Below are positions 640 to 11,980 of a DNA stretch of 13,883 bases, one piece after another. Within the stretch, counting starts at the first letter, position 1; every line of letters begins with the position of its first letter. The translations under genes were made by a program, and so were the position numbers. The DNA is from Thermoflexales bacterium (GTDB lineage: Bacteria > Chloroflexota > Anaerolineae > Fen-1058). The notes beneath the pieces were generated by a model that was not told the DNA's origin, made no database searches, and saw only the letters and a list, made by a program, of their open reading frames with translations. Location: NCBI GenBank assembly GCA_016931085.1, contig JAFGFO010000232.1, positions 1-13,883 on the forward strand, read 5' to 3'.

Positions 640-1698
640 ATGAGCAGTCCGTTACGAGCGAGCAGCAGCCAACAAGTGAATGAGGTGATCGGCCAAGCGT
701 TGTCCACGCCCAAACCTTACCCCCTGCCCCCGGACGTGCTGGCCTGGATCGAGAGCGGCCAGCGCTGGGACCCGCTGGAGGAAATCGCCTGGCGGCTGGG
801 CGCCGAGCGGGAGGAGGGGGTCGAAAGGCGGGCCGAGATAACGGTGGGGCGGGAGGAGGAAATCAAAAGCATTCACAAGCTCCTGGAGCGAGGCCGCCAC
901 GTGCTGCTGGTCGGCTCGCACGGGGTGGGCAAGAGCCACATGCTCAGGCACATTGCCGGCGAGCTGGCCGGCGGCGGCACGTGCTTGTTCTTTGACGGCT
1001 TTGGCGCGCCCAAGAGCGTGCTCAAGGAGGTGTGCCTGGCGCTTCACGAGGCCGGCCACCTGCCGGGCTACCAACACGAAGCAGATCCTGAGCGGGCCGG
1101 CGCCATGCTGAACCGCTTGCCACTCGGCAACCTGAGCCAGTTGGCGGCGGCCGGCCTGGACGGGCAGGGCTACACGCTCGTGATCGACAACCTGGACAGC
1201 CTGACTGCCGCTGGCGTGCCGATCCTGCAGGCGATCAGCGACAAGGCGATCCTCGTCGCCGCGTGTAAAGCCGAGAAAACGGAACGGGTAGCCGGGGTGA
1301 TCGATCGCTTCAACCGGGTCGAGCTGGCCCCCATGAACAGCCGGGACATCGCAGCCCTTTTATGGACGCGCCTGGAGCGAGCAGCCGTGGCCGACCCCCA
1401 ACTGTTGGAACGGCGCATCGTGGCCCAGGCCAACGGCAACCCTGGCGTGGTGGTCGATGCCGCTCACAAGCTGGCCGGCAATGCCAGCCTGGCCGACATC
1501 CGCGACGTGCGCGCGACCATCCCCACGACAAGCCAGGTAGATTTAACCTGGATCGTTTTTTTCGCCGTGGCCGGGCTGCTTGCCTTGCGCTACGTCGCCC
1601 GCGCCACAGACAGCACGACCGCTTACGTCGTCTTTGGCGTGCTGTCCGCCTTTGGCATGGCAGCCCGCATCCTGCTGCCGCGGCTGGCGCGCTACTAG
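640..1698 (+). CDS. P-loop ATPase (AAA/Orc1-like) with two C-terminal membrane helices
   Basis: A 352-aa protein built on a P-loop ATPase core. It carries a V-G-R-E-E-E entry motif typical of AAA_16/Orc1-like ATPases (69-74), a Walker A motif G-S-H-G-V-G-K-S (92-99) and a Walker B-like strand Y-T-L-V-I-D-N-L-D (178-186), followed by a hydrophobic strand ending in A-C-K (about 204-210) that could hold sensor 1. After the N-G-N-P segment (265-268) the chain ends in two hydrophobic helices (about 303-319 and 326-347), so the ATPase domain is expected to be cytoplasmic and tethered by its C-terminus. The ATG at 640 follows a G-rich site (623-628); another ATG at 630 is out of frame. It is first in a block with genes at 1710, 2022 and 2511. 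The specific job is unknown; the ATPase call is firm, the subfamily is not. Confidence 0.8.
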   Translation: MSSPLRASSSQQVNEVIGQALSTPKPYPLPPDVLAWIESGQRWDPLEEIAWRLGAEREEGVERRAEITVGREEEIKSIHKLLERGRHVLLVGSHGVGKSHMLRHIAGELAGGGTCLFFDGFGAPKSVLKEVCLALHEAGHLPGYQHEADPERAGAMLNRLPLGNLSQLAAAGLDGQGYTLVIDNLDSLTAAGVPILQAISDKAILVAACKAEKTERVAGVIDRFNRVELAPMNSRDIAALLWTRLERAAVADPQLLERRIVAQANGNPGVVVDAAHKLAGNASLADIRDVRATIPTTSQVDLTWIVFFAVAGLLALRYVARATDSTTAYVVFGVLSAFGMAARILLPRLARY

Positions 1699-1709
1699 GA
1701 AGGAAAGCC

Positions 1710-2021
1710 ATGATAGAACTGCCTTTGCCTGACAACGTGGGGCAATCCATCTTGCTCGAACACGAAGATGGCTCCAGGCACTATTACGTCGTCACCGACG
1801 AAATCGCGCGAGCCAGGCCAGACGCTCCCAACAAGGTTTTGAGCTTTCAGCGGCTCGAAGCCAAAAAGGATGGGCGCGTCCAATTGCGCTTTTGCCACTT
1901 TTTCGCGGACGAAAGCGAGTGGGTCTTTGTCCAGCACGCGCTGTATATCTCGCCCGGCGAGTTCGAGGACGTCGTGGCCGAGGCGTCCGGGCGGGGCTGG
2001 TTTGACATCACTGGGAAGTAA
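1710..2021 (+). CDS. Small protein of unknown function (103 aa)
   Basis: I do not recognise this gene. It encodes 103 residues with no signal peptide or membrane helix, so it is probably cytoplasmic. It is rich in charged and aromatic residues; a notable stretch is F-C-H-F-F-A-D-E-S-E-W-V-F-V-Q (61-75), and the chain ends W-F-D-I-T-G-K. The ATG at 1710 sits 11 bases after the stop of the ATPase gene and behind a purine-rich ribosome-binding site (1697-1707). Its TAA stop directly abuts the ATG of the receiver gene at 2022, so the two are probably translated together. A longer reading of the same frame starting inside the ATPase gene is not credible. It may be an adaptor between the ATPase and the receiver, but that is only inference from position. 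Confidence 0.75.
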   Translation: MIELPLPDNVGQSILLEHEDGSRHYYVVTDEIARARPDAPNKVLSFQRLEAKKDGRVQLRFCHFFADESEWVFVQHALYISPGEFEDVVAEASGRGWFDITGK

Positions 2022-2408
2022 ATGAACACGCTCGCGCTGATTGTCGAAGACGACGCCGACGCCGTAGTTATTTTTTCCGAGGCCCTCCAACAAGCCGGCC
2101 TGGCGGTAGAGGTGGCTTTCAATGGCAACCAGGCGCTGCGGCGGCTGGCGGAGAGGGTGCCTGACCTGATTGTGCTGGACTGGCACCTGCCTCACGCTTC
2201 TGGCCGGGACGTGCTCGACTTTGTCCAGGCGGACGCGCGATTCGAGGACACGCTGGTGATCCTGGCCAGCGCGGACATATTGGCAGGGGAAAAGATCACC
2301 GGCCGGGTGGAGGTGCTGATCAAGCCGGTCGGGTTCAAGCAATTGCGCGACCTGGTGAAACGCTATGCCGAAAATAGCCACAGAGGCACAGAGGACGCAG
2401 AGTTATAG
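2022..2408 (+). CDS. Stand-alone response-regulator receiver (CheY-like)
   Basis: A 128-aa single-domain receiver. The acidic triad E9-D10-D11 opens strand 1, the phosphoacceptor is D53 in L-I-V-L-D-W-H-L-P, the conserved Ser/Thr position is S83 in I-L-A-S-A-D, and the conserved Lys is K101 in L-I-K-P-V. All residues needed for phosphorylation are present, and there is no output domain. Such proteins act by phosphorylation-dependent binding to a partner. No histidine kinase lies in this block; the kinase at 6733-9225 has its own regulator. The start follows the preceding stop directly, with only a weak GGGAAG (2013-2018), suggesting translational coupling. The last ten residues, S-H-R-G-T-E-D-A-E-L, come from a tandem repeat (2379-2402) read as coding sequence and are probably not part of the fold. 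Confidence 0.9.
   Translation: MNTLALIVEDDADAVVIFSEALQQAGLAVEVAFNGNQALRRLAERVPDLIVLDWHLPHASGRDVLDFVQADARFEDTLVILASADILAGEKITGRVEVLIKPVGFKQLRDLVKRYAENSHRGTEDAEL
2379..2402 (+). repeat. Degenerate 8-bp tandem repeat (CACAGAGG type)
   Basis: Three consecutive octamers, CACAGAGG, CACAGAGG and ACGCAGAG. This family of short repeats is scattered through many bacterial genomes, often next to genes. Here it forms the last codons of the receiver gene. Confidence 0.75.
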
Positions 2409-2417
2409 CCTTTTAGA

Positions 2418-2440
2418 GAGTTTTTGCATGCAAAAAACTC
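2418..2440. repeat. Near-perfect palindrome between receiver and FtsK-like genes
   Basis: GAGTTTTTGCA pairs with TGCAAAAAACTC with one extra A in the right arm. It starts ten bases after the receiver stop. It lacks a T-run after the right arm, so it is not a textbook terminator; it could attenuate transcription, protect an mRNA end, or belong to a dispersed palindromic repeat family. The adjoining CTCGGTTTCTTG adds to the repeat-like look. Confidence 0.6.
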
Positions 2441-2510
2441 GGTTTCTTGAACGTCGCGCTTTTCGTCGTTGGCGCAGAACGGGCGGTCACAAAATCCACA
2501 TGACAGATCT

Positions 2511-4100
2511 ATGAGACGCCAGTTGTGGATCATCCTGTCTACTTTGCTCGTCAGCCTTGTGTTGCCTAGGGTTCATACCTGTGTCGTTGTTTCTCATCCT
2601 CTGTCTTTTGCACCAATCTGCCATTATCAATTGACAATTAACCATTTACAATTAACAATTCAAAAGCCCACTCCTCCCAAGCCGCCGCCGCCGCCGCCGC
2701 CGACCGAAGCGCCATCCTCCGGCGATGGGGGGAGCTACCAGCCGCCGTCCACCGGCACACCTACCCCGCCTCCTCCAAGCGCGACCCACACCCGCCGCCC
2801 GCCACCCCGGCCCACCGCGACGTTCACCCCAACGCCCACACCCTCTTGCACGCCTAGTCGCACCCCGATGCCCACGCCCACCACCACGCCCACGCCATCC
2901 CGCACGCCGCGCGCCCAGCTTTTTGCCCTGCCCACGCCCAGCCGTGCGGCTGGTTCTGAGGCGGGGGCAGTTGTCGCCGCCAGCCCAACCTGCTCCCCCA
3001 CCCCACGAGCGAGCCGGCGTGCCTTCCCATCCACGTCTCTGGCCGCCCCGGCTGCGGCATTGGTGAGCTTTTTGACGCGGGTGGCCTGGCTGCCGGCGGC
3101 CCTGGCCGTTCTCATCCTGGTCTTGAGCTGGGCCAGGCGGGCCGCGCCTGGCTTGCGGGGTCCGCTGATGGGAGTGACTGTCATCGCCCTGGCCCTGGCG
3201 GTGTTTTTCGCCGCCGCGCGCCCAAGCCCGGCCGGCGTCCAGAGCTTGAACGTGTCCCTGGTCTGGCAGGCCGGTTTGGCCCTCCTGGCCGCCGTCCTGA
3301 TCGCCACCACCGGCGGCTGGCTGGCCGGCAAGCTCAACTCACACGTACCCCAACAACCATCCCCAACTTCTGATCCCCCTGCCCGCTGCCCAAGCCCCAC
3401 TTCCCAACCTGAAACCTGCGACCTGCAACCTGAAACCTCTTCCCTTCCCCCCCTCTTCCTGGCCGAGGGTGCGCGCGTCCTCGTCACAGGTCCCTCGCGC
3501 AGCGGGAAATCGACCGTTCTGCACCATCTGTGCCGGGCTGCCATGGCCGATCCCACCTTCGACGAGATCGTGCTGCTCGACGGCAAGGGACCGGAACTGA
3601 TCGCCTGGGCGGGGGCCACCCCGGTTGTAAGCTATTGCGGCCCGGAGGATATCGCGGCCTGGATTGCCCCCCTGGAGCGCATCGTGCAGGGGTTTCCCGC
3701 CCGCTACGCTGGCCTGGTCAAGGCTGGCCTACGCAGGGCTGAGCCTGGCGGGAATCGCAAAATGATCGTGATTGACGAGGTCCAGCGTGCCAGCCGGATT
3801 GAGCTTGGCAAAAAGATCATGGCGGCTTTGCTCACCATCGCCGAGCAGAGCGGCGCGCTGGGCGACGTGCTGGTGATCACGACCCAACGCGCCACGCACC
3901 ACAGCCTGGACAAGTCGATCTCGTACAACGCCAACCTGGTCATTGCCCTGACCAGTCCCGAGCACCCCGGCCGCTTTGAGCTGTACAGCTCGTTGGCGCA
4001 GAAAAGGCCCGCTCGCCGTGGCCAGGCCAGGCCGGCCGGCGACGCCGACATCACCGCCTGGGCGGCCGAGCTGACCGGCCGGCGCGCCGGGCGAGATTGA
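2511..4100 (+). CDS. Membrane-anchored FtsK/SpoIIIE-type ATPase
   Basis: With the ATG at 2511 the protein has 529 aa. An earlier in-frame TTG at 2469 adds 14 residues but would bury the signal-anchor start M-R-R-Q-L-W-I-I-L-S. Order: N-terminal hydrophobic helix, seven prolines, a Pro/Thr-rich stretch (about 80-136), three hydrophobic helices (about 190-207, 217-236, 252-269), a linker, then a compact motor with Walker A G-P-S-R-S-G-K-S (327-334), D-G-K-G-P-E-L (357-363, like the D-P-K-x-x-E-L motif of FtsK), Walker B M-I-V-I-D-E (418-423) and T-T-Q-R (457-460, like A-T-Q-R-P). Positive charges fit a Pro/Thr segment outside and a motor inside. The DNA-reading gamma domain of FtsK is absent, so this is not the cell-division translocase; a mobile-element or transport role is possible. 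No clear ribosome-binding site is seen. Confidence 0.82.
   Translation: MRRQLWIILSTLLVSLVLPRVHTCVVVSHPLSFAPICHYQLTINHLQLTIQKPTPPKPPPPPPPTEAPSSGDGGSYQPPSTGTPTPPPPSATHTRRPPPRPTATFTPTPTPSCTPSRTPMPTPTTTPTPSRTPRAQLFALPTPSRAAGSEAGAVVAASPTCSPTPRASRRAFPSTSLAAPAAALVSFLTRVAWLPAALAVLILVLSWARRAAPGLRGPLMGVTVIALALAVFFAAARPSPAGVQSLNVSLVWQAGLALLAAVLIATTGGWLAGKLNSHVPQQPSPTSDPPARCPSPTSQPETCDLQPETSSLPPLFLAEGARVLVTGPSRSGKSTVLHHLCRAAMADPTFDEIVLLDGKGPELIAWAGATPVVSYCGPEDIAAWIAPLERIVQGFPARYAGLVKAGLRRAEPGGNRKMIVIDEVQRASRIELGKKIMAALLTIAEQSGALGDVLVITTQRATHHSLDKSISYNANLVIALTSPEHPGRFELYSSLAQKRPARRGQARPAGDADITAWAAELTGRRAGRD
2621..2662 (+). repeat. Degenerate AT-rich 7-bp tandem repeat
   Basis: Six consecutive heptamers: CCATTAT, CAATTGA, CAATTAA, CCATTTA, CAATTAA, CAATTCA. 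It lies inside the FtsK-like gene and is read as C-H-Y-Q-L-T-I-N-H-L-Q-L-T-I-Q. A 12-bp piece (2637-2648) recurs exactly at 4201-4212, upstream of the next gene. Such heptamer arrays are usually intergenic. Confidence 0.8.
3405..3439 (+). repeat. Degenerate ACCTG-type 7-bp tandem repeat
   Basis: Five consecutive heptamers: CAACCTG, AAACCTG, CGACCTG, CAACCTG, AAACCTC. It is read as Q-P-E-T-C-D-L-Q-P-E-T-S in the linker between the last membrane helix and the motor domain of the FtsK-like protein. It has the same period as the repeat at 2621-2662 but an unrelated unit. Confidence 0.8.
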
Positions 4101-4232: not shown

Positions 4233-4264
4233 CGTACAAATTAATCATGATCAAGGAGAAAACC

Positions 4265-6343
4265 ATGTATACCAAGTCATTACGAACGATACTATCCGTC
4301 CTATTCGTAGGGGGAGTGATTCTCGGCGTGTTGCCCGGTGTCAGTGACGCCCGAGTGCCCCCCCCCGAAGAACCCATCGCTCTGCAAATTCAAGACGATG
4401 GCGGCACGGCCGAGGTGGCTGTGGAATGGATGACCGACTGGCCCGGCACAGCTAATGATCGCGCCAATTGGTATTACTCTGCCAACAACCTGTACAATGA
4501 GCTGCTCAACGCCGGTTGGATTGGGCGCTTTAACTGGGGCAATACCAACGCCTGGGAACGGGATTTCAAGGCCGCCGCGTCTGGCGGCAATGGCGACATT
4601 GACACTGTTGACCTGGCCTTGATTGGGACCCACGGCACAGGTGGCTGGGATTCCCGTTACAGCAAGAACTTGAGCGCGGTCTCCTTTACCAGCAACAATG
4701 ACGACACGGTACTCAGCCCTGGCGAGGCGTATCGCTATTACGGCACGAATGACCTCGAATGGCTGGCGTTTGACTCGTGCAGCGTGCTGCGTGACGATAG
4801 CATGTGGTACTGGCACGAAACTTTTAACGGTCTGCACCTGATGCTAGGCTTTGCCAACACGATGTACGTAGTCTATCCCGGCGATGGCGGCGAGTGGGGC
4901 AATCAGATGCGGAAAAAGGGTTGGTGGATCTTTGGCCACGACGCCAAGACTGTAACCCAAGCCTGGTTCTCGGCCGTAGAGGACCAACAACCCTCTGGCG
5001 TGCGGGCGCGCGTGCTGGCAGAAGCGCTCGACAACTACAACGACTATATGTGGGGTCAGGGTTACGTCAGCCCTGATTATCCCAACAATGGCGCTTATTG
5101 GTACTGGGATCACGTGGCGGGAACGCCCCCACCGCTTCAACTGGCCGCCGCGCCCACCAGTATGCCCATCTACCAGGTCGTGCCACGCACGGTGGACGAA
5201 GATTATGTTCGCAGGATCGCCTGGTCTTTTGGTTTTAGCACGACTGACAAGGTGCTCGCAGCGCCCGACCACTCGGCTTTCTACATGGCCAAGGGCGTGA
5301 GCGACACTCAACAACTGCGCGTAGACGCATTCAGCGGCGGCTACCTGTACCAGGACCTCGGCGAATTGTGGACTAAGCCCGAACTGCCGCGCAAGCTGCC
5401 GCCTTCCGGGCCGCGCGCGCAAAGCATCGTGGACAGCTTTATGCAAGGTCGAGGCGAGAGCCTGGCCGGGTTCTACGGCCAACACACCCTGGTCACGCCA
5501 ACCGTCGAAGCGGAAGGCGTGAGCGTTGGCCTCTCTTCTAGCGCTCGAGTCGCCGCCGCGGCGCCGACCACGGTGACGAATTATATGGTCAGTTACGCCC
5601 GCGCCCTGGACATTGGCGACGGGCAACAAGCATCGATCGTCGGGCCGGGAGCGCGCTTCAACGTCTACGTCGGCAATGACAACCAGATCGTCGGGCTAAA
5701 GGGCGGCTGGCGTGACGTTCAGATGGCCACACCCCAGCGAGCAAGCGCCCAGGCCACAGCAGCCGTCACTGTGCCCATCAAGACTGCCAATCAAGCCTGG
5801 AGCGATTTCGAGGCCGACCCCACCATCGCCCTGGCTAAAGCGCCGCTGGCCAGTTCTTATGACCGCGCCGGCAAGCCCGATCCAACGCTAGCTTATTACG
5901 AGCAGTCACTTTCCATCACCCAAACCGAGCTGATACCGGCCTGGGTTTTCGTCGCCGACTTGTACACCGCCACCACCAGCCTCGTCGCGAGCGACGTCAA
6001 CCTGTACGTGCCGGCGGCGGCCGACCCCCTGGCGACACTCCAGGCCAACATCACCCAGCCTGCCACAGGCATCCAAATCAAGCCGGGCGAAAGCCTGAAC
6101 CTGAGCGGCGCGGCCGGCGGCGGGGTGCCACCCTACACCTATCACTGGTCTTCGAGCGTGGACGGCGCGTTGGGCGCGGGGGCTGACTTGACCACCCCCG
6201 AGCTACATGCCGACGTACACAGCGGCCAGATGCAAGCGAACGCCATCACCTTGCTTGTCGTCGACGCCAATGGACAAACGGCTACGGATACGATCCACGT
6301 GACAGTGAGCTCTCAGGTCTATTTGCCGCTGGTCTTGAAATAG
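4265..6343 (+). CDS. Secreted protein, caspase-like (clan CD-like) pattern plus Ig/PKD-like module; possibly DUF6345
   Basis: A 692-aa exported protein. The ATG at 4265 is preferred over that at 4247 because AAGGAG (4253-4258) lies six bases before it and it begins a clean signal peptide (M-Y-T-K-S-L-R, hydrophobic core, V-S-D-A cleavage site near residue 30). The N-terminal half has two hydrophobic strands each ending in a possible catalytic residue: V-D-L-A-L-I-G-T-H-G with H123, and L-E-W-L-A-F-D-S-C with C172. This Cys-His layout is that of clan CD peptidases (caspases, gingipains). From memory it resembles proteins labelled DUF6345. A C-terminal module (about 597-681) containing G-G-V-P-P-Y-T-Y-H-W looks like an Ig/PKD fold, and the chain ends V-Y-L-P-L-V-L-K, a tail common in exported Chloroflexota proteins. 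Peptidase activity is inferred, not shown. Confidence 0.75.
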   Translation: MYTKSLRTILSVLFVGGVILGVLPGVSDARVPPPEEPIALQIQDDGGTAEVAVEWMTDWPGTANDRANWYYSANNLYNELLNAGWIGRFNWGNTNAWERDFKAAASGGNGDIDTVDLALIGTHGTGGWDSRYSKNLSAVSFTSNNDDTVLSPGEAYRYYGTNDLEWLAFDSCSVLRDDSMWYWHETFNGLHLMLGFANTMYVVYPGDGGEWGNQMRKKGWWIFGHDAKTVTQAWFSAVEDQQPSGVRARVLAEALDNYNDYMWGQGYVSPDYPNNGAYWYWDHVAGTPPPLQLAAAPTSMPIYQVVPRTVDEDYVRRIAWSFGFSTTDKVLAAPDHSAFYMAKGVSDTQQLRVDAFSGGYLYQDLGELWTKPELPRKLPPSGPRAQSIVDSFMQGRGESLAGFYGQHTLVTPTVEAEGVSVGLSSSARVAAAAPTTVTNYMVSYARALDIGDGQQASIVGPGARFNVYVGNDNQIVGLKGGWRDVQMATPQRASAQATAAVTVPIKTANQAWSDFEADPTIALAKAPLASSYDRAGKPDPTLAYYEQSLSITQTELIPAWVFVADLYTATTSLVASDVNLYVPAAADPLATLQANITQPATGIQIKPGESLNLSGAAGGGVPPYTYHWSSSVDGALGAGADLTTPELHADVHSGQMQANAITLLVVDANGQTATDTIHVTVSSQVYLPLVLK

Positions 6344-6353
6344 CGAGCCCCGT

Positions 6354-6378
6354 TTTTGACGTAATCCTGGCGTCAGAA
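6354..6378. other. Short hairpin after the secreted-protein gene
   Basis: TTTTGACG (6354-6361) pairs with CGTCAGAA (6371-6378), allowing one G-T pair, around a nine-base loop. It starts eleven bases after the stop at 6343. No T-run follows on either strand, so it is at most a weak terminator. Confidence 0.35.
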
Positions 6379-6478
6379 AGGAGGTCGTTTATCGAACAGT
6401 GAGTGTCTTACCCATTGACGTTCGTGGTTCAAAGGGGATATTTCTGCCGTCCGATGAAGCCAAGCTATCCTTCCCAGC

Positions 6479-6736
6479 TGTAAGCTATTGCGGCCCGGGG
6501 GACATCGCGGCCTGGATTGCCCCCTGGAGTGCATCGTGCAGTCGATCTCGTACAACGCCAACCTGGTCATTGCCCTGGCCAGTCCCGAGCATCCAGGCCG
6601 CTTTGAGCTGTACAGCTCGCTCGAGCAGAAAAGGCCCGCTCGCCGTGGCCAGGCCAGGCCGGCCGGCGACGGTGACATTGCCGCCTGGGTAGCTGAGGTG
6701 ACCTGCCGGCGCGCCGCAGGCGCAACGCACTTTTAA
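6479..6736 (+). pseudogene. Relic of an FtsK-like gene 3' end (deleted and frameshifted)
   Basis: Positions 6479-6541 match 3626-3689 of the FtsK-like gene with three substitutions and one missing base: a C-run has five instead of six, shifting the frame. Homology then jumps to 6542-6718, matching 3915 to about 4091 at roughly 90% identity by eye. The skipped piece, 3690-3914, is 225 bases, exactly 75 codons, with AG at both break points. Walker A is upstream of the copied part, and Walker B and T-T-Q-R fall in the deletion, so no ATPase could be made. The two halves read V-S-Y-C-G-P-G-D-I-A-A-W-I-A-P in one frame and S-I-S-Y-N-A-N-L-V-I-A-L in another, ending at a TAA (6734-6736) that overlaps the kinase stop tail to tail. 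The 135 bases before it (6344-6478) show no gene beyond the hairpin. Confidence 0.88.
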
Positions 6737-9225
6737 GGTGCAGAGTGGGGAATGCGAACCTGGAGCAGCGTACCCTCTCCGGCTTGGCTTTCAATCTCTA
6801 GCGTTCCCCCCACGCTGTCAGCGCGCTCCCGCATAGAGTGCAGGCCCAAGTGACCAGGATACTCCCGCCGGTGATCAAAGCCCACCCCATCATCCTGCAC
6901 CACCAGGATGACCTCCTGCTCGCACTCACTCAACCGCATGTCCACCCAGCCGGCCTGAGCATGCTTGACGATGTTGTTCAGCGCTTCCTGGGCGATGCGG
7001 TACAGCACCTCTTTTGCTTCGAGTGGCAGGTGTGGCTCCTCGCAAAACTTGGCCCGCACGTCGATCTCGAGACGAGCACGTAGGGCAACGGCCTGCCGAT
7101 TCAAGGCTGTCACCAGCCCCTCCTTTTTCAGGAAATCTGGGCGCAGCTCCAAGATCAAGGCCCGCATTTCAGCCAGCCCAGCCTCGGCCAGCGCCAGCAC
7201 ATAGTCCAGCGGCTCGACCACCTGGGCGGGGTCACGGTCCAGCAGCGTGCGGGCTGTGCGCGCACTCAAGCCAATGCCATATAATACCTGCGAAACCGAG
7301 TCGTGCAGCTCGCGTGCCAGTCTTTGCCGTTCCTCCAGCACCGCCAGGCGTTGAGCCTGCTCATACAACTGGGTGTTCTCAATAGCGATAGCGGCCTGGT
7401 TGGCAACGACCAATGCCAGCGCAACGTGCTGAGCTGTATAAGCATAAGGCTGATCGTGGTCGAGACTCAACACGCCGACCAGGCGTTCGCGGACCATCAA
7501 CGGGACCCCCATCCAGGTGCGGATGGCGTCAGCCACTGCCTCCGGATGCGTGCCCATGATTTGCCGGTAATTCTGCGCCAGTGGGCTTTCCCCCTGCACG
7601 TCGTCAATCACCAGCGGCTCGCTCTGCAGCATCATGGCCTCATAGGCTTTTTGATCCTTCAGGGAGAAACACAGCCAGGCCAGCAAACCGGGGGAGACCG
7701 GCCCTCGATGGGCTGCAACTCGAAGCTCGTTTTCCTCATAGGTCAAGAGGCTGGCGCTGGTATAATCCACCATCTGCTTGATCTGATCCAGGATCAAGTC
7801 CAGCGAAGGAGACAGTTCCAGCGTGGACGCCAATTGGCTCGATAGATCCAGCAGAGTGCTCAGCTCCCGGGTGCGCTGCCTCACACGCTGCTCCAGCAAC
7901 TCGTGGGCGTGAACTTCCTCGGTGATATCACGTGCCACAACCAGGATGTGAGGGCGCCCGCGAAATGTAAAGCCTGCGCCAAGCATTTTAACAGGAAATG
8001 CGGTGCCGTCTTTGCGCAAGCCTATGACTTGCCTTTGAAGGAATTCCCCGGCCCTGACAAGCTCAACATACTCGACAAAGCACGGCAGCGAATCAGGGTG
8101 GATGAATTGGGGCGGCTGCAGGTGACGAAACGCTTCGGGTGAGTAACCATGCATACGAGCCGCGGCCGGGTTAAAGTCCACCAGGTGGCCTTCCAGGTCG
8201 TGGACGAGCAAGCTGTCACTGGTGGATTCAAAGATGCTGCGGTACTGCTCCTCCCGTTCTCGCAGTGCGATCTCGGCCTGCTCGCGCCTGGCAATATCCT
8301 GCCGCAGTTGCTCAGTGCGCTGCCGGACGAGCTGCGCCAGGCGTGTCTGGCGGTTGACGGACAAGTAGACCAGGTTGGTTAACAAGCCAACAATCACGAG
8401 TCCCACGATCTGGAAGACACGCTGGGGTTCCTCCACGGTGGCATACCAGCTTGTCTGAGGCACACCGGCCAGTTCCCAGTCTCCCTCCGGCAAATCAACG
8501 CGCCTGGTGACGGGAGCGCGATCAAAGACCGTGCTGGATCCATAAAAGACTTGCCTCCTACTATCGCGCAGCGCAAACACCAGTTCGCCTGATGGCTCGT
8601 TTAACCTGGCTTCTTCCAGCAACGCCGGCAGATCCACCACAACACTAACCAATCCCCAATACGTGCCGTCCCGATAAACAGCCTGCTGGGCGACCAGGCT
8701 CATGCCGCCTTGAGTCAGCTCAATGGGGCCACTCAGGACAATGTGCTGCGATTCAACCGCGCGTTGTGCGTCGGCGCGCACATCGGGGCGAGGGTCCTGA
8801 AGTGCTTCGTAGCCGAGAATACGCTCGTTGCCGGTCAGCGGGTAGACATAGCGTACCACGCCGCCCGGCGCTATCGCCAGATGGCGAATGCCCTGGCTGC
8901 CCGCGTACAATCCGGCGGCAAAAATTCCAAAGCGGGTCGCCATCTCTTGCTCTGTGTAATCAGTCTGGGCGAAGGCAACCAGGCCTTGCAGCCGGACAAA
9001 ACGCCGGAGGATGGCTGACGACAGGGTACTGCTGCGCAGAGAAAGCTCGACGGCTGCCTCCGAACGCCGCTCGGCCAACAACTGTGCCTGATACCACCGT
9101 CCAGCTTGCCACCAAAGCAGCAAAAGCGCTGCCAGGGTCAACAAGGCAACGAGCAGCGCGCCGCCTTCTGGCTCCCGCACATAGCCGCGCATGCGACGCC
9201 AAGTCGTCGTGAGCTTTTTTATCAT
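6733..9225 (-). CDS. Sensor histidine kinase, CHASE-PAS-GAF-HisKA_3 type (NarL family)
   Basis: An 830-aa membrane sensor kinase. A first transmembrane helix (about 22-40) and a second (about 270-289) flank an extracytoplasmic CHASE-like domain (about 41-269, with G-L-V-S-V-V-V-D-L near its end). Inside follow a short coiled coil, a PAS domain (about 325-440, ending A-R-D-I-T-E-E), a GAF domain (about 468-620), a HisKA_3 dimerisation domain with phosphoacceptor H641 in L-A-R-E-L-H-D-S-V-S-Q, and a HATPase_c domain with N-box E-A-L-N-N-I-V-K-H-A (747-756) and G-box D-D-G-V-G-F (778-783). All catalytic residues are intact. It should phosphorylate the regulator encoded just upstream: its ATG overlaps that gene's TGA as ATGA, so translation is probably coupled, and no separate ribosome-binding site is evident. 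The ligand is unknown; CHASE domains usually bind small extracellular molecules. Confidence 0.95.
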   Translation of the reverse strand: MIKKLTTTWRRMRGYVREPEGGALLVALLTLAALLLLWWQAGRWYQAQLLAERRSEAAVELSLRSSTLSSAILRRFVRLQGLVAFAQTDYTEQEMATRFGIFAAGLYAGSQGIRHLAIAPGGVVRYVYPLTGNERILGYEALQDPRPDVRADAQRAVESQHIVLSGPIELTQGGMSLVAQQAVYRDGTYWGLVSVVVDLPALLEEARLNEPSGELVFALRDSRRQVFYGSSTVFDRAPVTRRVDLPEGDWELAGVPQTSWYATVEEPQRVFQIVGLVIVGLLTNLVYLSVNRQTRLAQLVRQRTEQLRQDIARREQAEIALREREEQYRSIFESTSDSLLVHDLEGHLVDFNPAAARMHGYSPEAFRHLQPPQFIHPDSLPCFVEYVELVRAGEFLQRQVIGLRKDGTAFPVKMLGAGFTFRGRPHILVVARDITEEVHAHELLEQRVRQRTRELSTLLDLSSQLASTLELSPSLDLILDQIKQMVDYTSASLLTYEENELRVAAHRGPVSPGLLAWLCFSLKDQKAYEAMMLQSEPLVIDDVQGESPLAQNYRQIMGTHPEAVADAIRTWMGVPLMVRERLVGVLSLDHDQPYAYTAQHVALALVVANQAAIAIENTQLYEQAQRLAVLEERQRLARELHDSVSQVLYGIGLSARTARTLLDRDPAQVVEPLDYVLALAEAGLAEMRALILELRPDFLKKEGLVTALNRQAVALRARLEIDVRAKFCEEPHLPLEAKEVLYRIAQEALNNIVKHAQAGWVDMRLSECEQEVILVVQDDGVGFDHRREYPGHLGLHSMRERADSVGGTLEIESQAGEGTLLQVRIPHSAP

Positions 9226-9872
9226 ACAGCTTGATCCGCTGCGTTAAGCGACACCAGGCCTATGCGCACAGCGTGGAGCGCGGCCTGGGTGCGGCTGAGC
9301 ACGCCAAGCTTGCCCAGGATGTTGCTGACGTGCGTCTTGACGGTTTTTTCGCCGATGGAAAGGCTGGCGGCAATCTCCTTGTTGGCCTTGCCATGGGCCA
9401 ACAGCCGCAGCACCTCGGTCTCGCGCTCGGTCAGCGTCTCAGGGCTGTCAGGCGCGCGCACCTCGTGCATCAGGCGCGCCGCAACCTGCGGCGACAGTTG
9501 CACCTGCCCGGCGGCGGCGGCCTTGATAGAGCGGCATAGTTCGTCAGCCTCCAAGTCCTTGAGCAAATAGCCGATCGCACCGGCCTGCATGGCCTTGAAA
9601 ATAGCCTGGTCTTCCAGCACGCTGGTCAGCGCAATGACCTCAGTGTCGGGCAGCTCGCGCCGGATGGTCAGCGTGGCAGCCACGCCATCCATGACCGGCA
9701 TCAGCAAATCCATCAGCACCACGTCTGGCTTGAGTTGGCGTGCCAGGATCAAAGCCTCGTCACCGTTCTTGGCCTCGCCTACAATGGTCAACTCCGAGTC
9801 CAGCGCCAAGAACATCCTGAGGCCCTTGCGGACCACGCTGTGATCGTCCACGATCAAGATACGAATTCCCAT
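9222..9872 (-). CDS. NarL/FixJ-family response regulator (LuxR-type HTH)
   Basis: A 216-aa DNA-binding response regulator. The receiver domain has D9-D10, phosphoacceptor D55 in V-V-L-M-D-L-L-M-P, T83/S84 in A-L-T-S, and K105 in Y-L-L-K-D. A linker leads to a LuxR-type helix-turn-helix (about 147-203) with the hallmark L-T-E-R-E-T-E-V-L-R-L-L-A and the recognition region E-K-T-V-K-T-H-V-S-N-I-L-G-K-L. It is the cognate partner of the kinase at 6733-9225, which follows with a 4-base overlap. The start at 9872 is supported by GGGAGG (9880-9885) seven bases upstream and by a perfect extended -10 box. Phosphorylation is expected to promote dimerisation and DNA binding; target genes cannot be named from the sequence. 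Length and domain order are standard for the family. Confidence 0.96.
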   Translation of the reverse strand: MGIRILIVDDHSVVRKGLRMFLALDSELTIVGEAKNGDEALILARQLKPDVVLMDLLMPVMDGVAATLTIRRELPDTEVIALTSVLEDQAIFKAMQAGAIGYLLKDLEADELCRSIKAAAAGQVQLSPQVAARLMHEVRAPDSPETLTERETEVLRLLAHGKANKEIAASLSIGEKTVKTHVSNILGKLGVLSRTQAALHAVRIGLVSLNAADQAV

Positions 9873-9901
9873 ATCCTAGCCTCCCTGCTGTTCGCAAACC
9901 C

Positions 9902-9910
9902 ATTATAGCA
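9902..9910 (-). promoter_or_regulatory. Extended -10 promoter of the two-component operon
   Basis: On the minus strand TG at 9910-9909, one base, then a perfect TATAAT (9907-9902). No -35 box at normal spacing; a TTCACA at 9935-9930 is 22 bases away and too far. Transcription would start near 9895, about 23 bases before the regulator ATG. Confidence 0.6.
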
Positions 9911-9985
9911 TAAAAGCGGCACGGTTCGCTGTGAAGGGCCATCGGACGGAATAGGGGAAAGTTGGTCGCCCCCCCAGCGTTGACG

Positions 9986-11980
9986 TCAGCAGATCGTGCT
10001 CCATGTGCGCAACCACATCTCCAGGTTGATCCAGGGCCAGACCGGGAGCGTCTTGTCGTTGTTAGATAGCTGCCACGAGGCCAGTTGATTGTGGACAGCC
10101 TCAAGGCGCAGGTAATCGCGGCAGCGCGACTGGGGGCCAAGCATATCAGGCTCGGCACGCAGCCAGCGGCGAAGCCACCTCCCTTCTGGCACTTCAAATC
10201 CCACTTTGTCCCTGCGCCATACGATCTCGTCAGGCAGCCGGCCTTGCATGGCCTTGCGCAAGATCCATTTTGTCCATCCCTGGTGGATGCGCCAGCCCGC
10301 CGCTGCGGCAAACGCGAACTCGACCAGGCGGTGGTCCAGGAAAGGCACACGCGCCTCGACGCTGAACGCCATCGCGTTCCGGTCTTCGTAATGCAGCAGA
10401 AAAGGCAAGCTCGATTCTGTCAACACTGTCCTGAGATGCCGGTCGAGCGTAGCATGCTTGGACCAGTCGAACCAATCTGCCCTCGTCTGGTGGCCAAAGT
10501 GCAGGGCAAAGTCAGGCTGCAAGCAAGCTCGATCCGCCTGCCGCCGGGCGTGTTGCCGGCGCATGGTGCGCGTCACCGGCGACGGCAAGCTATAAACCAA
10601 TGAACGGGCCAACAGGGGATAAGCGGGCAGGCAAGTCGCTGCCTGGATCGCGCGTGCTTCCCGGCAAGCCGGCCACAGGCCAGCGCGGTGTATCACGTCG
10701 TTCAGGAATATCTCGAAAGGGCGGTAACCGCCCAAAGCCTCGTCGGCGCCTTGACCGTCCAGCAATACCGTGACGCCACATTCGCGCGCTTTGCTCATGA
10801 CGCACCATTGGGCAAAAACGCTGAGAGAGCCGAAGGGATGTTCTTGATGCCAGACCAACTGCTCCAGGTCAGCCCGCAGCCGCTCAACGGTGGGGAAAGT
10901 AAAGTTGCCTTCAACGCCCGTCGCATCCAATACCTTCTGGATATAGGAGCGCTCATTGTAACGGCCTTCTGTGTCATACACAGCACTGAAGGTCTTCAAG
11001 CGCTCGCCGAGCTGTCCATCAGCCACATGGCCTTGTGTGAGCAGATGCCTGATGGCCCAGACGATCGAGGATGAATCCAGCCCGCCGCTCAAGCAAGTTC
11101 CAACCAGCACATCAGACTGTAAATGCAGGCGTACGGTGTCGATGAGCAAGTCGCGGTATCTTTCGATCTCGTTGTCAGGAGAAGTCCGGGGAGCATCCCC
11201 TAACTCTGGAAGGTCCCAATAGCGCTGCTGGATCACGCGATCTGGCGTGGGGCCTACCCGCAGCCACTGTCCGGGGGGTAATGACAAGACCCCTTTGAAG
11301 TAGGTCCGCTCCTGGCTGGGGGGTGGGTCACCAGCCACCAGGTAACGATAGATGGTCTCGTCATCGGCCTGGAAAGGGATGCCGTGCTTGCCAACCAAGG
11401 CCTTGATTTCCGACGCAAAGGTGAGGGCACCATCCTGGCGCGCGTAATAGAGTGGCTTGATGCCAAAGCGATCACGGGCCAGGAACAAGCAGCGTTCCTG
11501 CTTATCCCAGATTGCCAAGGCCCACATCCCATTCAAGCGCGGCAAGCACGCCGTGCCCCAGTGCTGGTAAGCCGCCAAAACCACCTCGGTATCCGTTCGA
11601 CTTTGAAAACTATAGCCCAGCCCGCTCAACTCGGCGCGCAAGGCGAGGTAATTGTAAATCTCGCCGTTGAAAACAATCCAATAGCGCTCGTGAGGGTCAG
11701 ACATGGGTTGATGGCCAGCCGCAGACAGGTCGAGAATTGCCAGGCGGCGAAAGCCAAACGCCAAGTCAAAATCCTGGTCGGCAAAATTTTCGATCGGAGG
11801 CAAGTTGAGCTGCGACATGGTAGCCTGGCCTCCACCCGGCACGCTGCGGCCGGCTTGGGTGTTGACCAACACATAACCCTCGTCATCGGGGCCACGGTGG
11901 CGTAAGAGTGTCGTGGCGCGCCGAAGGTTTGACATATTCAATTTCTTGCCAGGGGTCCAAATACCAAAAATGCCGCACAT
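9986..11980 (-). CDS. asnB: Asparagine synthetase (glutamine-hydrolysing) family protein
   Basis: A 664-aa two-domain amidotransferase. The start must be the ATG at 11980, because glutaminase activity needs the free N-terminal Cys2 in M-C-G-I-F-G-I; a reading starting at 12022 would hide it. The class II glutaminase domain has R-H-R-G-P-D-D-E-G (27-35), N-G-E-I-Y-N (105-110) and R-T-D-T-E-V (128-133). The synthetase domain has the PP-loop S-G-G-L-D-S-S-S (298-305) and G-Q-G-A-D-E-A-L-G-G-Y (409-419). The reaction is expected to be aspartate + glutamine + ATP giving asparagine, glutamate, AMP and PPi in the cytoplasm. Some relatives of this length amidate other substrates, such as cell-surface sugars or peptides, so the gene symbol is a family label. 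A GAAGGGA site lies about 12-18 bases before the start. It is divergent from the amylase gene. Confidence 0.9.
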   Translation of the reverse strand: MCGIFGIWTPGKKLNMSNLRRATTLLRHRGPDDEGYVLVNTQAGRSVPGGGQATMSQLNLPPIENFADQDFDLAFGFRRLAILDLSAAGHQPMSDPHERYWIVFNGEIYNYLALRAELSGLGYSFQSRTDTEVVLAAYQHWGTACLPRLNGMWALAIWDKQERCLFLARDRFGIKPLYYARQDGALTFASEIKALVGKHGIPFQADDETIYRYLVAGDPPPSQERTYFKGVLSLPPGQWLRVGPTPDRVIQQRYWDLPELGDAPRTSPDNEIERYRDLLIDTVRLHLQSDVLVGTCLSGGLDSSSIVWAIRHLLTQGHVADGQLGERLKTFSAVYDTEGRYNERSYIQKVLDATGVEGNFTFPTVERLRADLEQLVWHQEHPFGSLSVFAQWCVMSKARECGVTVLLDGQGADEALGGYRPFEIFLNDVIHRAGLWPACREARAIQAATCLPAYPLLARSLVYSLPSPVTRTMRRQHARRQADRACLQPDFALHFGHQTRADWFDWSKHATLDRHLRTVLTESSLPFLLHYEDRNAMAFSVEARVPFLDHRLVEFAFAAAAGWRIHQGWTKWILRKAMQGRLPDEIVWRRDKVGFEVPEGRWLRRWLRAEPDMLGPQSRCRDYLRLEAVHNQLASWQLSNNDKTLPVWPWINLEMWLRTWSTIC

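Follow-up and report, generated by a model that had tools for sequence, protein, structure and literature searches.

The contig JAFGFO010000232.1 of a Thermoflexales bacterium (Chloroflexota; assembly GCA_016931085.1), which is 13,883 nucleotides long and is referred to below, in its entirety, as the window, carries four closely spaced genes on the forward strand. Genes 1 and 4 encode ATPases that both look membrane-anchored by hydropathy, gene 2 encodes a small orphan protein, and gene 3 encodes a lone receiver domain. Comparison of their sequences with those of relatives indicates that genes 1 and 4 form one functional unit, i.e., a membrane-tethered motor pair. This pair is most likely a DNA pump from a mobile-element module, an explanation which we hold at about even confidence.

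The product of gene 1 (640-1698; 352 amino acids, aa) is an AAA_16/STAND-type ATPase (Pfam AAA_16, E = 1.9e-11) which ends in a conserved two-helix membrane hairpin, with the helices at about 1531-1677 and hydropathy peaks beginning at residues 298 and 328. A PDB search with the gene 1 profile returned nothing specific. After 11 bases follows gene 2 (1710-2021), whose product is a 103-aa orphan, and directly adjoining it (0 bases) is gene 3 (2022-2408), whose 128-aa product matches Response_reg (E = 1.2e-13) with the phosphoacceptor motif VLDWHLP present and no further domain over the Pfam cut-off, i.e., a receiver without an output domain. Gene 4 (2511-4100) has an uncertain start, the candidates being TTG at 2469, ATG at 2511 and GTG at 3063, where the database model P0010 opens. 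Thus, the gap between genes 3 and 4 is 60, 102 or 654 bases.

The gene 4 product has a P/T-rich, low-complexity front part (the stalk), membrane helices at about 3054-3308 and an FtsK/SpoIIIE-like ATPase domain at 3441-4094, with hydropathy peaks beginning at residues 21, 196, 228 and 259 in the frame counted from 2469. The FtsK_SpoIIIE match (E = 5.8e-6) lies above the Pfam cut-off (26.3 bits vs. 24), and the key residues of the motifs GPSRSGKST and VIDE are invariant in A4, the alignment of gene 4; with a domain over the cut-off and both Walker A and Walker B, gene 4 qualifies, as judged from its sequence, as a motor of the FtsK/SpoIIIE superfamily. The best PDB matches of its ATPase domain are FtsK translocases (2iuu, E = 2.1e-6), the TraB, EssC/EccC and VirB4 models show weak similarity only, and Pfam finds no DNA-binding domain in it. 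A relative of gene 4, P0012, contains a Peptidase_C92 domain in its N-terminal part (30.6 bits vs. a cut-off of 27). With a cytosolic ATPase, the outer side of the membrane would hold the stalk or the C92 domain, a topology suggested by hydropathy and charges. The open reading frames (ORFs), domains and hydropathy agree with an earlier note on this DNA, which had described four close genes on one strand with these domains and had given sizes for the first two gaps alone.

Coupling of the two motors

One polypeptide carries both motors in five relatives, namely P0015, P0016 and the proteins of loci L099, L114 and L115. P0015 (553 aa) aligns with gene 4 over residues 19-234 (51% identity, E = 1e-67) and with gene 1 over residues 221-552 (38% identity, E = 7e-76); P0016 is a second such fusion with a truncated front. 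The other three were found by profile search in the genomes G358 (L099), G095 (L114) and G376 (L115), and a match in G287 (E = 1.7e-22), which meets the contig end, was left out of the fusion count. An unfused pair on the same strand, with the gene 4 relative first and 12 bases between the two genes, is present in G750 (L166).

In a tree of the AAA domain, the window protein lies in a well supported clade of 8 rows (97/95) to which P0015 also belongs, and the other fusions group in 4 rows (100/100). In a tree of the FtsK half, the clade with the window protein and P0015 has 7 rows (100/99), and the other fusions and the G287 fragment lie on the opposite side in 5 rows (100/99), with one very long branch. 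A deep division of this kind appears in both trees, and fused proteins occur on each side of it, which means either repeated fusion or an old fusion which was later split. Either course implies a lasting functional coupling of genes 1 and 4. The claim of the earlier note that the two ATPases belong together is thus borne out by the five fusions and the adjacent pair, and the finding that would have spoken against it, i.e., homologues of genes 1 and 4 being unlinked in relatives, was not obtained.

The two small genes in between behave differently. Gene 2 matches none of the Pfam, PADLOC, PHROGs or NCBIfam families, and its best PDB match (E = 1.1) is nothing specific. A protein search returned three clusters, its own included, among 6 scored candidates, the other two being 84% and 86% identical over 98%. 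One of these relatives lies on a contig of the size listed for a relative of gene 1 (2762) and the other on a contig of the size listed for a relative of gene 4 (13017), and equal contig sizes alone serve to pair P0002 with P0009, P0004 with P0012 and P0008 with P0011. The 103-aa protein probably belongs with the motor pair in close relatives, as a lineage-specific accessory; gene 2 was found in very close relatives and in no others.

For the receiver, which in the reading of the earlier note would be part of the machine and switch it by phosphorylation, the observations point both ways. A profile made from the window receiver finds none beside the pair in L166, L096, L099, L114 and L115. But the window is not the only place where a receiver accompanies such a motor: at two loci with weaker gene 4 relatives, L117 (G086, 7132-9665) and L120 (G018, 5898-10058), there are, in a row, an FtsK-like gene, an ORF of about 110 aa (106-117 aa), a receiver (E = 1.9e-9 and 9.8e-11 with the same profile) and a recombinase-like gene which reads as a tyrosine recombinase. 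However, the FtsK halves are distant from that of gene 4 (E about 1e-12 to 4e-11), the small ORF is unlike gene 2 (E above 1) and there is no AAA-hairpin partner, i.e., no second ATPase of the gene 1 type. This cluster is a parallel to the window layout and not a homologous operon, and it is possibly a separate Chloroflexota integrative element. In L118, L119 and L120, a 206-209-aa two-helix protein precedes the FtsK-like gene. For the window receiver, a role as regulator of the motor pair is possible.

Relatives on chromosomes and plasmids

In four of the seven Chloroflexota loci read (L096, L099, L114 and L115), the AAA-hairpin gene is followed by genes for YdjM, a membrane hydrolase, and for an SNase nuclease, which adjoins YdjM or is fused to it. 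The remaining three loci are the window itself, L166 (3.6 kb) and L097 (4 kb), where the gene 1 relative (765-1487, genome G024) has an internal stop and is apparently decayed. In L096, a HerA-like ATPase overlaps the AAA gene (partial matches, under the cut-off). Mobile-element genes surround two of the three readable fusions, with ArdC-N, RadC, an actin-like protein and a DdrB-like protein around L099 and an integrase, P22_AR and Rad52 around L115. A YdjM is found somewhere in all 6 genomes tested, and also in 8 of 14 control genomes; thus, the presence of YdjM in a genome is uninformative, and it is adjacency that counts. A gene table in a Listeria paper places ydjM a few genes from ftsK, a possible separate YdjM-FtsK pairing (PMC7006209).

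The motor-pair system looks rare and patchy. Profiles were made from alignments of gene 1 (A1), gene 4 (A4) and the fusion (A5); the genome samples overlap, and the large searches scored the best 4 to 7 candidates per genome, which makes absences weak. A1 matches 2 of 396 genomes in the class of G001, a Caldilineae metagenome-assembled genome (E 1e-8), and, in the families of G194 and G024, 2 of 24 and 1 of 2 genomes, respectively; the order of G750 gives 3 of 48 (E 1e-9). A4 matches 13 of 392 genomes at E 1e-6, four of them strongly (E below 1e-20). At E 1e-15, it matches two genomes out of 48 in the order to which G358 belongs and one out of six in that of G095. An A1 search of a genome contig collection gave no match. 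Several sets of candidates were set aside. When A1 was run on 12 genomes, 11 matched at E 0.001 over the P-loop region only, and these were read as ordinary ATPases; A5, run across the phylum, matched 60 of 400 genomes, and the listed matches span only the FtsK half (about 6-209 of 471) and were read as ordinary FtsK-type proteins. Of the 13 genomes from the A4 class search, nine (E 1e-12 or weaker) showed neither a convincing AAA-hairpin partner nor a convincing YdjM over the stretches retrieved; two of these nine are G086 and G018, which have the receiver cluster described above.

Relatives of gene 1 also occur on plasmids. With tblastn, gene 1 found 11 plasmid records and its Nitrosococcus relative 18, 21 different ones in total, from Thermus, Gammaproteobacteria, Bacteroidota and one archaeon; these records are not independent, as 10 are from Thermus, 3 from Nitrosococcus and 2 from one Haliscomenobacter strain. 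All 21 are typed as non-mobilizable. The sequence identity to gene 1 is remote (20-27%), and a profile alignment with hhalign covers positions 65-347, the hairpin included, with a probability of 99.9 and E = 5.2e-31.

In 20 of the 21 plasmid records, a gene annotated 'metal-dependent hydrolase' lies within about 2 kb of the gene 1 relative (it is short, 128 aa, in the Flammeovirga plasmid), and in the sole exception, NZ_AP025620, a gene annotated 'HlyD family secretion protein' occupies this position. The plasmid hydrolases that were scanned (5/5) are PF04307, i.e., YdjM. Three of five YdjM pieces, two of the three from Thermus, match Biotin_lipoyl_2 weakly (E = 0.00022 to 0.025), and one of the three also matches HlyD_3 (E = 0.049), suggesting a lipoyl/HlyD-like stalk on YdjM, a call which rests in part on the annotator's name. 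All 10 Thermus records have a TolC family protein, and in 9 of the 10 the stretch shown also has a thermonuclease, encoded on the opposite strand close to YdjM or to the position that YdjM would take.

The module takes other forms elsewhere. On the Bacteroidota plasmids (5/5), the gene 1 match lies inside a gene annotated as an integrase (L081 5287-6861, L129, L132, L154 and L156), and the one record scanned with Pfam, from Flavobacterium, encodes a tyrosine recombinase fused to an AAA-hairpin ATPase. Plasmid pTBMP1 of Thermococcus barophilus (L131, 6998-8850) has the ATPase, then YdjM, then a large NEW3-domain protein; thus, the ATPase-YdjM pair crosses the divide between bacteria and archaea.

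FtsK/HerA motors on mobile elements are already known; for the AAA-hairpin/YdjM module, no description was found in the open-licence literature searched. A paper on Thermus plasmids mentions, in the sections consulted, a segregation ATPase and an integrase shared with pL4C, and these sections do not mention the module (PMC4599208). A viral origin was considered and set aside, as pattern scans of IMG/VR with A1, A5 and A4 gave no relative. Together with the weak similarity to TraB, EssC/EccC and VirB4, the three scans speak against a match of the gene set to a known conjugation or phage module, a match that the earlier note had named as a refutation of its reading.

A candidate DNA pump and its alternatives

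In the proposed mechanism, gene 4 would be an ATPase of the FtsK/HerA superfamily that sits at the inner membrane surface, anchored by its N-terminal helices with the stalk pointing outward, and gene 1 would be its AAA partner, held by the C-terminal helix hairpin. Together, the two would pump a polymer, probably DNA, across the membrane. Their ancestor may have been a mobile-element module in which the pair, or a gene 1 relative alone, works with the membrane hydrolase YdjM and its outward extension, often joined by a nuclease thought to act outside. By this proposed course of descent, the window branch would have kept the motors, the rest of the module being absent nearby. An arrangement with the motors inside, the nuclease and the peptidase outside and the hydrolase in the membrane in between would suit the carriage of DNA through the envelope, although no single locus seen has the nuclease, the peptidase, the motors and YdjM all together.

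A broader proposal, which we put forward tentatively and regard as possible rather than probable, is that these genes belong to an undescribed, relaxase-free membrane machine that moves DNA between cells and is spread, on plasmids and in integrated elements, among Chloroflexota, Thermus, Gammaproteobacteria, Bacteroidota and one archaeon. It would consist of the AAA-hairpin ATPase, which some lineages have joined to a tyrosine recombinase or to an FtsK-like motor in one protein, and YdjM with a lipoyl-like stalk, joined by a TolC-like protein in Thermus and often by a surface nuclease; the window would be a chromosomal branch reduced to the two motors.

Three systems offer a comparison. First, TraB of Streptomyces plasmids is an FtsK-family translocase of double-stranded DNA and, like TdtA, a DNA motor of this superfamily, and it shows that a single FtsK-type motor transfers DNA by itself, on small plasmids (PMC5365140, in the sections consulted). 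However, a C-terminal motif of TraB reads clt repeats, whereas gene 4 has no DNA-binding domain found and has a second ATPase as partner; the TraB model NF041214 reaches E = 4.7e-4 with the L099 fusion (18.8 bits vs. a cut-off of 800), and no TraB match is listed for gene 4. Second, TdtA, the FtsK-HerA DNA donation ATPase of Thermus ICEth1, belongs to the same superfamily and lies on a mobile element, and the nuclease NurA is discussed as its partner; it differs in that the same sections describe no AAA-hairpin partner or YdjM (PMC5365140), a distinction drawn by description and not by sequence. Third, the archaeal plasmid pT26-2 has an unexplained membrane module with a VirB4/HerA-like ATPase, for which an unknown DNA secretion system has been proposed (PMC6972569, in part). 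The likeness, i.e., membrane proteins and such an ATPase on a plasmid, is again one of description, whereas most proteins of its conserved region are reported there to have no relatives outside the family.

Several observations weigh against a DNA pump of mobile-element origin. Within the window, the ORFs scanned with Pfam hold no relaxase, integrase, VirB4-type set or other channel gene (clt-like repeats were not searched), and a six-frame search of the 13.9 kb with local profiles found neither YdjM nor SNase. The neighbours farther downstream, i.e., a CHASE-PAS-GAF histidine kinase, a LuxR-type response regulator, an asparagine synthase and an alpha-amylase, look chromosomal, as does the even GC content (0.57-0.68 over the window genes, with no clear island). 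Beyond the window, L166 has no YdjM or nuclease near the pair (in 3.6 kb only), and L114 has metabolic neighbour genes. The gene order is 1 then 4 in the window vs. 4 then 1 in L166 and the fusions. The fusions of L099 and L115 have an arginine in place of the Walker A lysine in their AAA half, so this half may not hydrolyse ATP. Finally, the FtsK-AAA fusion was not found on plasmids, where the L099 query gave one partial match, to a Streptomyces record (30%, E = 3e-6), or among phage records, where again a single partial match came up (30% of the query, E = 4e-6); it is thus the gene 1 half that connects the two-motor form with the plasmid module. The suggestion of the earlier note that this may be a membrane-bound machine, for instance one of mobile-element transfer, is supported in part, by the anchoring seen in hydropathy and by relatives on plasmids and integrase-bearing elements.

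Among the alternatives, export of proteins by a type VII-like system, with gene 4 as a one-domain EssC/EccC and gene 1 as its partner ATPase, survives best, and we consider it unlikely. Gene 4, like EssC/EccC, is an FtsK-like ATPase with N-terminal membrane helices, the L099 fusion matches EssC (E = 6.1e-6) and EccCb (E = 3.6e-5) weakly, EccCb matches gene 4 at E = 0.0028, and the gene 4 profile also picks up EccC chains (E = 0.0098 and 0.02). A further point for it, and against the DNA pump, is a putative N-terminal ubiquitin-like domain resembling YukD in one relative, that of gene 1 in G750 (L166, 1569-2708): PF08817 scores 27 bits against a cut-off of 27 with the first 80 residues and 23.1 with the whole protein, and a redesigned ubiquitin matches at E = 0.0031. 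However, FtsK translocases score better than EccC with the gene 4 profile, the EssC/EccC scores fall far below their cut-offs (16 bits vs. 346.55 for gene 4), gene 4 has a single FtsK domain, no WXG100 or other type VII secretion domain is present in the window ORFs scanned with Pfam, and the mobile-element relatives couple the motor with YdjM and a nuclease.

The nuclease itself invites another explanation, namely defence or plasmid exclusion, in which membrane ATPases and a surface nuclease would cut incoming DNA; we give it less credence than protein export. The SNase by or fused to YdjM in L096, L099, L114 and L115 and the thermonuclease of 9 of the 10 Thermus plasmids would suit this role, most of the L099 nuclease is covered by a match to the PADLOC model SNc+LTD (E = 6.8e-47), and the PADLOC model mad8 matches gene 4 (E = 1.3e-11). 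However, the mad8 match is confined to the ATPase domain, none of the four window proteins matches a PADLOC defence model over its length, the matches being partial ones in the ATPase and receiver domains, and the window has no nuclease. Least probable is a worn-down mobile-element remnant without present function, to which the decayed gene 4 copy at 6473-6716, the internal stop in L097, the missing partner genes and the low-complexity front part of gene 4 would point, and against which stand the four open ORFs, the intact Walker motifs of genes 1 and 4, the 79% identity of gene 1 with P0002 over its full length and the conservation of gene 2 in its close relatives (84-86% over 98%).

Neighbouring features and significance

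Two features directly downstream complete the description of the window. A gene at 4247-6343 on the forward strand encodes a secreted-type DUF6345 protein (Pfam, E = 7.4e-45); its membership in the system is unsupported, and the family name is absent from the open-licence literature searched. It is flanked on one side by gene 4 and on the other by a decayed partial duplicate of gene 4 (6473-6716, forward strand), which corresponds to the C-terminal part and was not in the gene list of the earlier note. The copy was recognised with blastn, in which 64 of 70 and 162 of 177 bases are identical; it has an internal deletion of about 220 bases, and it matches the gene 4 profile at 6533-6715 (E = 2.6e-22). 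Farther downstream, the alpha-amylase is closest to one from a Caldilineae metagenome-assembled genome (68%) and next to those of other Chloroflexota assemblies (64-67%), which makes a host in this phylum probable, although Reinekea, a Planctomycetaceae assembly and Elusimicrobia come close behind (62-65%).

The preferred reading, i.e., a motor pair that pumps DNA and stems from a mobile-element module, bears on the many plasmids which are typed as non-mobilizable for want of a relaxase and which nonetheless spread. A conserved module of an ATPase and a membrane hydrolase, joined in Thermus by a TolC-like protein and a nuclease, would be a candidate for the means by which some such plasmids move or guard entry. 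Plasmids of Thermus thermophilus, which is a laboratory species, carry a version of the module, which makes the question directly testable.

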